This document shows, piece by piece, positions 6,619 through 53,270 of a DNA stretch of 64,000 nt (its first letter is position 1; each line of letters begins with the position of its first letter). The DNA comes from Pontibacter liquoris (GTDB lineage: Bacteria > Bacteroidota > Bacteroidia > Cytophagales > Hymenobacteraceae). A model generated the notes under the pieces. The model worked only from the letters and a program-made list of their open reading frames with translations, had not been told where the DNA came from and did no database searches. The position numbers and the translations under genes were made by a program. Location of the stretch: the NCBI RefSeq assembly GCF_022758235.1, contig NZ_JALEBG010000002.1, positions 806,001-870,000 on the forward strand, in the 5' to 3' direction.

Positions 6619-6837
6619 GTTGCCGGTTTTAATTTCCTAAATATACTGCTTATGTGGTGTGAAGTTGTTAGAAGGCAAGGAATGGAAGGCGTTGGTGTTG
6701 TTGCGTCCGGCAGGGTGGCGGCTGCAGTATACTCTGCGGCGGGTTATTATAATACTTGTTAGCTGCTTTTCTGATGTTTTGGTAGGATACTTCCGTTTAT
6801 AGTTATGAGTGGCAGTTTGTTGCGCTGTTTTAACCTT

Positions 6838-7441
6838 TGGCTATACTTTGTAGCTAGCTGTATTCCTCAGTCTTATACTTGCCTTGTTTCATTTAAGCAT
6901 TGGTGCGCTCCAAGCCCGCGAGGGCTCGTCCTTGCGTTTCGCGCTGTGGCGTGAAGCTGCTCCTCGCTGGCGCTGCGGGCTGCCTTTCAGGCACCGCAAC
7001 ACACCAAGGCGCTCAACCCAAGGACTGGGATCTGTTCGATAGCTGTTGTTTATATTTTAGTTAAAGTATAGGAAGTACAAGGGTTGAATGCCTTTGGTTT
7101 GCAACTTAAACCTAGTCCCCCTTTGAAGGGGGTAGGGGGATGTTATCACCTAAACCAGCCTGCCTATACTATAACTAAAGTATACTTGTACTCTTACCAC
7201 CAATAACTTTAAACAAACTGTCATTTCGACGATAGGAGAAATCTGAAACATAACATATCCATTCAGATCTCTCCTTGCGTCGAGATGACAGAAGGGAAGT
7301 GAGTTTCTCTTTTCTAACCTGCATAGAACCCTAACCGCTTATACTTCCCCAGTTGTAACTACAAACTCCCCTCCTTAGACTAGTGAGAACGCGAGTTCGA
7401 AGCCAGCGTTCGTAGCTCTGAGGGGCAGGGGTGGTTGGACC
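6838..7441 (+). repeat. Composite modular intergenic element, copy A
   Basis: The modules in order are: (1) a leader with TATACTT units (6842, 6886); (2) a GC-rich core, 6902-7047, beginning GCGCTCCAAGCCCGCG and ending GGATCTGTTCGATAGCT; (3) CCCCCTTTGAAGGGGGTAGG, 7117-7136; (4) a long hairpin, 7218-7291, with TCATTTCGACG at one end and CGTCGAGATGACAG at the other; (5) a CCCCTCC...GAGGGGCAGGGGTGG module ending GGTTGGACCC (7367-7441). Copies B (30.65-31.21 kb) and C (40.25-41.05 kb, reversed) carry the same modules in the same order with substitutions. No open reading frame is conserved between copies, so it is read as a non-coding element. Confidence 0.85.
7218..7291. repeat. Long-hairpin repeat, TCATTTCGACG family, copy 1
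   Basis: An inverted repeat: CTGTCATTTCGACG, an imperfect GAGAAATCTGA arm, a 12-nt centre, TCAGATCTCTCC, then CGTCGAGATGACAG. A closely related copy is at 40363-40435, a half copy at about 45706-45731, and a variant with different arms at 53199-53270. It behaves like a small REP-type or MITE-type element, with no coding capacity. Confidence 0.8.
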
Positions 7442-7457
7442 CGGACTGAAACCAAAC

Positions 7458-30649: not shown

Positions 30650-31210
30650 AAGCTATACTTGCTAGCTACTTTTATTCCGCAGTTTTATACTTGCCTTGTT
30701 TCATCTTTTGCTTTGGAGCGCTCCAAGCCCGCGGGGGCTCGTCCTTGCGTTGAGCGCTGTGGCGTGAAGCTGCTCCTCGCAGATGCTGCGGGCTGCCGCA
30801 TGCGCGGCACCGCAACACACCAAGGCGCTCTACCCGAGAACTGGGATCAATTCGATAGCTACTGCCTTTGCTAATGGAAACCCCTGTAGGGACAGGTCGC
30901 GACCTGTCCGCAATACGGCAGCCGCTATGAAAGGATAGCCGGAAGTATAGCAGTAGCAGAAAGTCCCCCTTTGAAGGGGGTAGGGGGATGTTATCACCTG
31001 AACTATGCTGGTTATACTTGTCTCTGGTAAAACAGCCCTCTTTCCCTTTTGTCACCCTGAAAGGATCTTGTGAGCAAGCTAATGAAGCCAAAACAACAAC
31101 ACTCATACTTCACCAACAGTAATTACAGACTCCCCTCCTTAAACTAGCGAGAACGCGAGTTCGAAGCTAGCGAGCGTAGCTCTGAGGGGCCAGGGGTGGT
31201 TGGACCCGGC
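30650..31210 (+). repeat. Composite modular intergenic element, copy B
   Basis: The order is the same as in copy A: TATACTT leader (30655, 30686); GC-rich core 30715-30860, starting GGAGCGCTCCAAGCCCGCGG and ending TTCGATAGCTACTG; the CCCCCTTTGAAGGGGGTAGG module at 30963-30982; a TCACCCTGAAAGGATCTTG module at 31054-31072 (shared with copy C but not A); and the CTCCCCTCCTT...GAGGGGCCAGGGGTGG module ending GGTTGGACCC at about 31131-31206 (with the same GAGAACGCGAGTTCGAAGC insert as copy A). The TCATTTCGACG hairpin is missing here. Confidence 0.85.
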
Positions 31211-40210: not shown

Positions 40211-40362
40211 GTAGTGGTTCTTTCTGAAGTATAGGCGGTGCAGTACCTGGTCCAACCACCCCTGGCCCCTCCTTATCCAAGGAGGGGAGCTTGTAGTTAC
40301 TGCTGGAGAAGTATAAGCGGTGTAGATTCTATGCAGGAGAGAAATAAGTTACTTCTTCCCTG

Positions 40363-40435
40363 CTGTCATCTCGACACTAGGAGAGATCTGGGTAATATGT
40401 TATGTTTCAGATTTCTCCTAGCGTCGAAATGACAG
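40363..40435. repeat. Long-hairpin repeat, TCATTTCGACG family, copy 2
   Basis: CTGTCATCTCGAC and GTCGAAATGACAG close an imperfect hairpin whose arms hold GGAGAGATCTG and CAGATTTCTCC. It is about 80 percent similar by eye to the copy at 7218-7291 and lies in the same module position. Confidence 0.8.
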
Positions 40436-40896
40436 CTTAGTTTAGGTTATTGCCTGAGAGAACACAAGTATACTTGGGCTGAAGTATAAGCGCTGTAATT
40501 CTGGTTTGATTAGCTTGCTCCCAAGATCCTCTCAGGATGACAAAAGGGAAAGAGGGGTGGAGAGGGTTTTATACTTGAGCCAAAGTATAAGCAGCATCTC
40601 AGGTCAAGCAAGTCATCCCCCTACCCCCTTCAAAGGGGGACTTGGTTTAAGTTGCAAAGCAAAAGCTTTAATTCTTTCCCTTCCTATACTTAAGCCCAAG
40701 TATAAATACTTAAGCCCAAGTATAAACAGTAGCTATCGAACTGATCCCAGTTCTTGGGTTGAGCGCCTCGAGAGTTTCCGGTGACGAACGAAAGTGAGGC
40801 AGCCCGAGGTACGAGGGCAGGAAACGAAAGCAGCGCGATGCCCAAGGACGAGCCCCCGCGGGCTTGGAGCGCTCCAAAGTATAAGGTGAAACAAGG

Positions 40897-41055
40897 CAAG
40901 TATAAAATGCGGAATACAGCTCACTAACAAGTATAGCTGGAATATTATACTTGCAGATCTGCAGCTAGCAAGTATAACCACAACATTCGACAGCCACTAC
41001 CAAGTATAGCCAGAACATCCAGCAACCGCTAGCAAGTATAATACACAACAGGTGT
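40897..41055 (+). repeat. Degenerate tandem array of ~32-bp CAAGTATA units
   Basis: Units begin at 40897, 40928, 40969, 41001 and 41033, spaced 31, 41, 32 and 32 bp. Each starts CAAGTATA and most end CTAA, CTAC or CTAG. Units at 40969 and 41001 are similar throughout (AACCACAACATTCGACAGCC against AGCCAGAACATCCAGCAACC). The 41-bp unit holds an inverted TATACTTG at 40946. The leaders of copies A and B contain one comparable 31-32 bp unit each (CAAGTATAAnACTGnGGAAT..., on the minus strand). Confidence 0.75.
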
Positions 41056-45619: not shown

Positions 45620-46021
45620 GTTTTACGGCTTCTGATAAATCCAGCCATGTTATGGAACCTACCCCTAACCCCTCCGGGGAGGGGAATCAGGCTGATGCTG
45701 TTTTGTCATCTCGACGTTAGGGGAGATCTGCTACAACCAGGTATAAACCTGGCTTGCGCACATTGGCGTTTGCTATCAAGCGTTCGCTCTTCGGGATCTG
45801 CAATCCCATTTCCGGGTGCCGTTATGAAATGGATAGTATGGGAATGCAGCGGCTTAACAGTTATACTTCCGGATTACAAATCCGAAAGAGCATTGGTGCT
45901 GCAGACAAAGAAAGGATAGCAGATTCCGCACTACCGTTCGAAAGGATAAGAGATATGAAATGACAACAGGTATAAAAGCCAAAGCCTGCTGTGCTGCAGG
46001 CTTTGGCTAAAAATCATACGT
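45620..46021. repeat. Non-coding region with hairpin fragments and a REP pair
   Basis: No gene is seen. ACCCCTAACCCCTCC/GGGGAGGGG (45660-45690) and a half copy of the TCATCTCGACG hairpin (45706-45731) repeat modules of the composite element. GCTCTTCGGGATCTGCAATCC (45785-45805) and the inverse partner TTCCGGATTACAAATCCGAAAGAGC (core 45866-45892) look like two REP sequences facing each other about 65 bp apart. Confidence 0.65.
45977..46008 (-). terminator. Terminator of the lutB gene
   Basis: AGCCAAAGCCTGC (45977-45989) pairs perfectly with GCAGGCTTTGGCT (45996-46008) around TGTGCT; the minus strand continues TTTATACC. It starts 13 bp past the stop at 46022. Confidence 0.8.
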
Positions 46022-53079: not shown

Positions 53080-53198
53080 GTATTAAGTGGATTTGGTTGC
53101 CTCATACTTGTAAGAAGGAACTGGATAAGTAGCGTAAGCGACGGAGAATGCCCTCCCGGTAGGGGGCCGGTTTATACTTCATACAGTGGAAGGTGCCC

Positions 53199-53270
53199 TT
53201 TCGAACAAAGTGAGAAAGCTGGGTGTGATCCTAAGAATGAATTTATTCGGATTTCTCACTTTGTTCGAAA
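53199..53270. repeat. Perfect-armed hairpin repeat
   Basis: TTTCGAACAAAGTGAGAAA (53199-53217) and its exact reverse complement TTTCTCACTTTGTTCGAAA (53252-53270) are separated by 34 bp. The element is followed by TGACAGAAGG like the TCATTTCGACG family and has the same size (about 72 bp) but different arms. Confidence 0.85.

Follow-up and report, generated by a model that had tools for sequence, protein, structure and literature searches.

Most structured RNAs of bacteria are present once or a few times per genome, whereas repeats of high copy number are mostly simple hairpins. In Neisseria, intergenic mosaic elements (RS/dRS3 arrays) are found alongside DNA uptake sequences; HEARO/omega-RNA elements are multi-copy, multi-branched, structured RNA-like repeats, often devoid of an ORF. 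REP sequences are described as lying mostly downstream of genes, where the neighboring genes are tandem or convergent (PMC3733652), and dRS3 units have been assigned to the CGTC-1 repeats (PMC3733652). The repeat analyzed here, from Pontibacter liquoris, resembles BIME/REP elements in being intergenic, in occurring in tens to hundreds of copies as a mosaic of palindromes and spacer motifs, in lying mostly between tandem or convergent genes, downstream of genes, and in forming species-specific families. It differs from them in that its core is a multi-branched covarying fold of ~135 nt rather than a 20-40 nt hairpin, has one polarity (208 of 212 modules) instead of alternating orientations, and shows neither a defining GTAG/CGTC-tagged REP unit nor a link to a RAYT gene. 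The core repeat fails several features of REP membership. With the Neisserial RS/dRS3 arrays it shares the combination of intergenic cassette-like mosaics and a short, very over-represented motif in the same genome; however, no link of the Pontibacter element to prophage integration or phase variation was seen. Like HEARO/omega-RNA elements, the core is multi-copy, multi-branched, RNA-like and without an ORF, but it has no relevant Rfam match, no IscB domain was found, and its own genome has no TnpB.

The window, a stretch of 64,000 nucleotides, covers positions 806001-870000 of P. liquoris contig C2; the genome measures 4,917,612 bases (4.9 Mb). The first-pass annotation had proposed that three intergenic regions of this window (6838-7441, copy A; 30650-31210, copy B; 40249-41055, copy C, reversed) hold copies of a composite noncoding element with conserved module order. 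Direct reading of the regions confirmed the three copies and found all of the modules in place, with minor letter differences and one additional module in copy B. All three thus represent a single intergenic mosaic repeat. In the first-read orientation, the order is leader, core, modules; the strand that folds (functional strand) is the reverse of the first-read strand. The core with its leader was located with an iterated nhmmer profile, the structured domain with a covariance model (R1), and the modules by direct reading and census.

In copy A, the core with leader extends from 6837 to 7065 (+; nhmmer profile and module census) and the structured domain occupies 6898-7031 on the minus strand (R1 match C2:812898-813031(-), 110.8 bits). 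The GGG module (GTCCCCCTTTGAAGGGGGTAGGGGGATG, 7115-7142), the TCATTTC inverted-repeat module (7219-7300) and the CCCCTCC...GGTTGGACC module (7364-7445) follow, all on the plus strand. Copy A has GGTGCGCTCC at the site that reads GGAGCGCTCC in copies B and C. In copy B, the core with leader spans 30650-30876 (+) and the structured domain 30711-30847 (-; R1 match C2:836711-836847(-), 97.5 bits). Next on the plus strand is the module absent from the first-pass annotation, the GACAGG module at 30880-30962 (GGGACAGGTCGCGACCTGTCC...; the segment reads CTGTAGGGACAGGTCGCGACCTGTCC...), succeeded by the GGG module (30963-30998), the TCATCC module, which reads TCACCCTGAAAGGATCTTG in this copy (31049-31095), and the CCCCTCC...GGTTGGACC module (31128-31210). 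Copy C is inverted, with the core and leader at 40710-40939 (-) and the structured domain at 40744-40879 (+; R1 match C2:846744-846879(+), 146.2 bits). Its modules, all on the minus strand, are GGG (40605-40640), TCATCC (40501-40543), the TCATTTC inverted repeat (40357-40427) and CCCCTCC...GGTTGGACC (40247-40295). The census also revealed an orphan TCATTTC inverted repeat at 53194-53260 (end approximate; no strand assigned); the corresponding gap of P. vulgaris (L135) holds a full core. A second solitary TCATTTC-type inverted repeat is found at 45704 of the window.

Data on the P. liquoris genome come from a 1.26 Mb sample and from all core loci. Full cores number 23 in the 1.26 Mb (iterated profile) and 61 genome-wide (covariance model, 4.9 Mb); each of the 61 loci was fetched and scanned for modules. 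At least one module lies downstream of the core in 60 of the 61 copies, and 208 of the 212 downstream module matches at these loci have one polarity. Chance is excluded by these core numbers and by the fact that 60 of 61 cores are followed by one or more modules of the common set, with polarity conserved. The element is thus a high-copy intergenic mosaic of short repeated motifs. Leader units of ~43 bp, one to several upstream of the core, account for 107 matches of a single polarity. GACAGG always comes first, TCATTTC always after GGG and/or TCATCC, and CCCCTCC last. The most frequent orders are GGG-TCATCC-CCCCTCC (10 loci), GACAGG-TCATCC-GGG-TCATTTC-CCCCTCC (8 loci) and GACAGG-GGG-TCATCC-CCCCTCC (7 loci). 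The conserved order first proposed therefore holds as to sequence of modules and polarity, but is not absolute, since GGG and TCATCC are found in both relative orders. The opposite possibility, modules occurring independently and in random order, did not materialize, as most module matches adjoin a core: in the 1.26 Mb sample, 19 of 29 GGG, 23 of 31 TCATCC, 22 of 32 TCATTTC, 21 of 27 CCCCTCC, 19 of 20 GACAGG and 35 of 35 leader matches. Modules are scarce outside composites in this sample, and some of the orphans are composites without a core. When copy C was compared by BLAST with the genome it comes from, 113 matches were returned, with stretches of core plus modules that align continuously at 69-82% identity; the spacers between modules align between copies as well.

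The core is ~210 bp long, and its reverse strand folds into a multi-branched structure of ~135 nt. The fold is made of a ~10 bp helix (P1), a UUGA/GAUG internal loop, a 4-bp GCGC helix and a long covarying arm (P3) that bears two smaller hairpins. A GCC/GGC hairpin lies just 3' of P1, and the conserved 3' flank of the fold contains an ATGAAAC box. The UUGA/GAUG loop, next to the GCGC helix, could form tandem sheared G-A pairs on the reverse strand only. Covariation was evaluated at 36 pairs in a 33-sequence alignment of this strand. The score is 0.278, versus 0.130 in shuffled alignments (none of 500 shuffles reaches the observed value) and 0.05-0.07 with slid partners. Since the slid control keeps the relatedness of the sequences, covariation does not result from shared ancestry alone. 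Changes on both sides of a pair amount to 117 cells at 19 pairs in the same alignment; because these sequences also contributed to deriving the structure, the percentage of paired positions is favored, the both-side changes much less so. Among cores from 17 species-level sets, entire blocks change together: GCCC/GGGC becomes GGCC/GGCC or GTCC/GGAC, and GTCCTTGGG/CCCAAGGAC becomes GTTTTCC/GGAAAAAC. The central arm exists as GUGGCGUG/CACACC, GUUUCC/GGAAAC, UGUAGAUUUCC/GGAAAUGUACA or UCUAUUG/CAAUAGA, and comes in two block-subtypes, each retaining a stem.

The annotation had read the element on the other strand; the strand that folds is the reverse one. Columns 12-118 (UG in 21 sequences, UA in 10, CG in 2) and 16-114 (UG in 25, UA in 7, CG in 1) pair only on the reverse strand. 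Read on this strand, reliable pairs include 48 G-U versus 22 A-C combinations. Predicted stability is higher for the reverse strand in 33 of 33 sequences (mean -56.4 versus -47.6 kcal/mol), and 89% of the P1, P2 and P6 pairs are recovered from it, versus 56% from the other strand. Covariance analysis, proposed along with the original observation, gave a one-strand signal that exceeds the shuffled as well as the slid controls. The core is a single-strand structure under selection, and this applies to one strand. RNA and strand-specific single-stranded DNA would both leave the covariation and the G-U (G-T) bias seen. A search with 4227 Rfam covariance models, at gathering and at permissive thresholds (E up to 1-10), produced no relevant match to the core. 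A palindromic mini-element of ~22 nt, GGGGGTAGGGGCCCTCGATAAAG, interrupts the core in an arm that varies between species (L099:16276-16436, L185:4022-4177, L149:3979-4134, L127:2663-2812 and others).

The same core is present in named records of P. vulgaris, P. mangrovi and P. arcticus. A Pontibacter-only distribution, suggested by DNA searches, was ruled out by covariance-model matches in 69 of 150 genomes of the family, representing four of the six genera sampled; at most 22 candidates were scored per genome in this survey, and under that ceiling seven sampled Pontibacter species gave no core match. Other genera of the family have, in full counts, 22 to at least 139 cores per genome. There, P1 has a wholly different sequence in the same layout (GUUUGGCU/AGCCAAAC; GUUUCUGUG/CGCAGAAAC). 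In one of these genera (G083, contig C2), cores often pair up in inverted orientation at a distance of ~330 nt, in the manner of REP dimers; examples are 4656986(-)/4657329(+) and 326229(-)/326560(+). Among 394 genomes of the class from outside the family, one matches, with a single core-like fold (E 1.4e-13). This fold is at G046 C2:214019-214129 (L276), in a different family of the same order.

Position relative to genes was scored with gene calls based on ORF length only. The first-read 3' side of the element faces the 3' end of a gene in 45 of 61 P. liquoris copies (p 3e-5 against a background of 48%, the share among large gaps) and in 61 of 75 copies from relatives (p 2e-9). The first-read 5' side is neutral in this respect, and gaps between divergent genes hold only 7 of the 61 copies. 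Placement is thus REP-like, mostly downstream of genes and between tandem or convergent ones, and this arrangement puts the folding strand in the direction of transcription out of the gene. A terminator separates the stop codon from the composite in 4 of 19 P. liquoris copies (A, B and two others) by a strict scan that, judged by eye, misses some terminators. Insertion just behind intrinsic terminators was considered and rejected: the same scanner found 36 in 200 control gene ends, hence no enrichment.

Comparison of 17 syntenic gaps between species showed a core in both species in 6; P. liquoris has modules without a core in 3, and 8 have nothing. All six shared cores have the same relative orientation. 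A seventh gap with a common core was identified separately (L128), and the locus of copy B has a core in common with two other species (L147, L165). The expected rate of shared gaps is 2-10% (p 1e-6 to 0.004). In the seven shared pairs, identity between orthologues is 61-83%, versus 85-94% with the best paralogue from the same genome. In a tree, 22 P. liquoris cores form two own-only clades that match the two subtypes of the central arm. A given locus has different downstream modules from one species to another. This pattern fits concerted evolution, with old loci homogenized species by species, or repeated use of hot spots; re-insertion at hot spots would mimic shared loci with species-specific sequence.

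Altogether, this is a real, ordered, genus-wide mosaic repeat built around a new covarying structured core. The reading we favor, and to which we would give about an even chance, is that of a mosaic repeat with a one-strand fold, placed in BIME-like fashion at gene 3' ends, whose old sites have been homogenized within species. Its most likely role would be that of a BIME-like RNA structure in the 3' flank of genes. Core and palindromes behind it would form a hairpin cluster in transcripts running past gene ends, and this cluster would stabilize or stop the 3' ends. The copies would reside at old, mostly vertically inherited sites, and recombination among them, by gene conversion or otherwise, would homogenize them within species and carry the neighboring palindromic modules along as ordered blocks. 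The annotation had offered two ideas, nested insertion of small elements at preferred sites and a multi-hairpin RNA under recombination. The second is the better one and is partly supported: covariation, strand preference, arm subtypes and species-wide homogenization speak for it, with the strand reversed.

A second reading, possible though rather unlikely in our judgment, makes the core a non-autonomous mobile element that moves as single-stranded DNA by means of a Y1/HUH (RAYT-like) transposase and re-inserts at preferred intergenic sites downstream of genes. It would explain the high copy number, which varies widely between species, the species-specific sequence clades, the strand polarity and the inverted pairs ~330 nt apart in another genus. 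Three or more cores are found in 36 of 39 RAYT-positive Pontibacter genomes and in 1 of 7 RAYT-negative ones (Fisher 6e-5, not corrected for phylogeny). However, none of 24 RAYT loci has a core nearby, whereas REP sequences flank their RAYT gene; the four RAYT genes inspected are flanked by other REPs (for example CTTTCGGATTRCAAATCCGAAAGAGC), syntenic loci are shared across species in the same orientation, and no target duplication was recognized. P. liquoris has one intact RAYT-type Y1 transposase gene (C3:347538-348104, or L082:7538-8104; NHLH and YIHENP motifs). The repeats that flank this gene are of the GGATTNNGAAATCC type; the core is not among them. A stretch beside it that looked core-like by eye had no notable score with the covariance model. 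With no core at any of the 24 RAYT loci, this RAYT protein is not supported as the mobilizer of the core.

Another reading centers on the AAGTATA heptamer, which the annotation had noted at module joints. It is not a module signal: AAGTATA is spread genome-wide, coding DNA included. It is the most enriched 7-mer in coding sequence (1120 occurrences in 1.08 Mb, 9.3x expected, in all frames) and in noncoding sequence (795 in 182 kb, 11.4x expected). Composites carry 11.0 occurrences per kb, noncoding DNA as a whole 4.4 per kb. Extension to AAGTATAA, with no further consensus, is seen in about half to two thirds of the occurrences. In over half of the Pontibacter sets analyzed, the heptamer ranks first among k-mers; its place is taken or shared by AACTATA in four (G018, G027, G031, G032) and by AGGTATA in nine (G003, G005, G009, G010, G011, G015, G016, G017, G029), and several large-genome species have no such heptamer. 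Species with AGGTATA are those with 0-3 cores, except G003, which has 10. The longest AAGTATA-free stretches are often AT-rich islands with helicases, relaxase or DNA methylase. Two low-GC examples are C3:374206-391094 and C3:360889-371145 (L083, L084); one island carries helicases, MrfA-like Zn-binding and HATPase proteins, another a relaxase and a C5 DNA methylase.

AAGTATA is over-represented on both strands, in coding as well as noncoding sequence, and has dialects in relatives, which is the profile of an uptake sequence. Both HIP1 (PMC4390886) and the uptake-sequence dialects (PMC3630211) resemble AAGTATA in being short motifs that greatly exceed expectation whether DNA is coding or not, in forming dialects between related species, and in being absent from foreign-looking islands. 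The Pontibacter motif differs in being a non-palindromic heptamer, in belonging to Bacteroidota, and in that no methyltransferase or uptake receptor was identified. The literature searched contains no paper on the AAGTATA motif. The only competence or uptake candidate found is a ComEC-type protein. Such proteins are common in many bacteria. AAGTATA is possibly a HIP1-like or DNA-uptake motif, a candidate function by analogy. The further proposal, that composites serve as recombination depots in which uptake-biased homologous recombination homogenizes core and modules, appears unlikely to us.

More improbable still is a form of the first of the annotation's ideas, that small independent palindromes nested at AAGTATA-like targets and built the mosaics separately at each locus. 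The density of AAGTATA in composites is in its favor, as is the GGGGGTAGGGGCCCT mini-element, which lies inside core arms at different points and indicates that small palindromes do insert. Against it are the fixed polarity and order at 60 loci, the spacers that align across copies, and the AAGTATA heptamers themselves, which occur genome-wide and, within the core, stand where relatives have similar sequence of equal length; these same-length near-matches make AAGTATA look gained by substitution, not left by insertion. An independently transcribed noncoding RNA gene family, of the omega-RNA (TnpB/IscB guide) or retron type, would suit the compact multi-branched fold with its conserved loops and 3' flank (ATGAAAC box), but is very improbable given the lack of a relevant Rfam match even at E up to 1-10, of any IscB domain (RRXRR) in 46 Pontibacter genomes (a search run without positive control), and of TnpB in all but 6 of these 46 genomes, P. 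liquoris being among those without it (an IscB/TnpB guide RNA is not supported), and given that the stretch upstream of the fold is occupied by different modules in different copies and species and shows no conserved promoter of its own. One Pontibacter species (G022) has about 20 TnpB-domain matches, and most species have none.

What sets the repeat apart is a covarying, strand-polar fold of ~135 nt, present at 60 to 140 copies per genome across the family and absent from Rfam. Because its copies evolve together within species, it represents either a large BIME-like repeat of a new kind or a repeated structured RNA, and provides a natural experiment on how intergenic mosaics co-evolve within species. 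We know of no earlier uptake-sequence system in Bacteroidota. Should the composites indeed be depots for uptake-biased recombination, this would be the first such system known in Bacteroidota and would directly explain the concerted evolution of the copies. AAGTATA and its dialects, if they act as an uptake or repair signal, would open DNA exchange in Bacteroidota to direct test.
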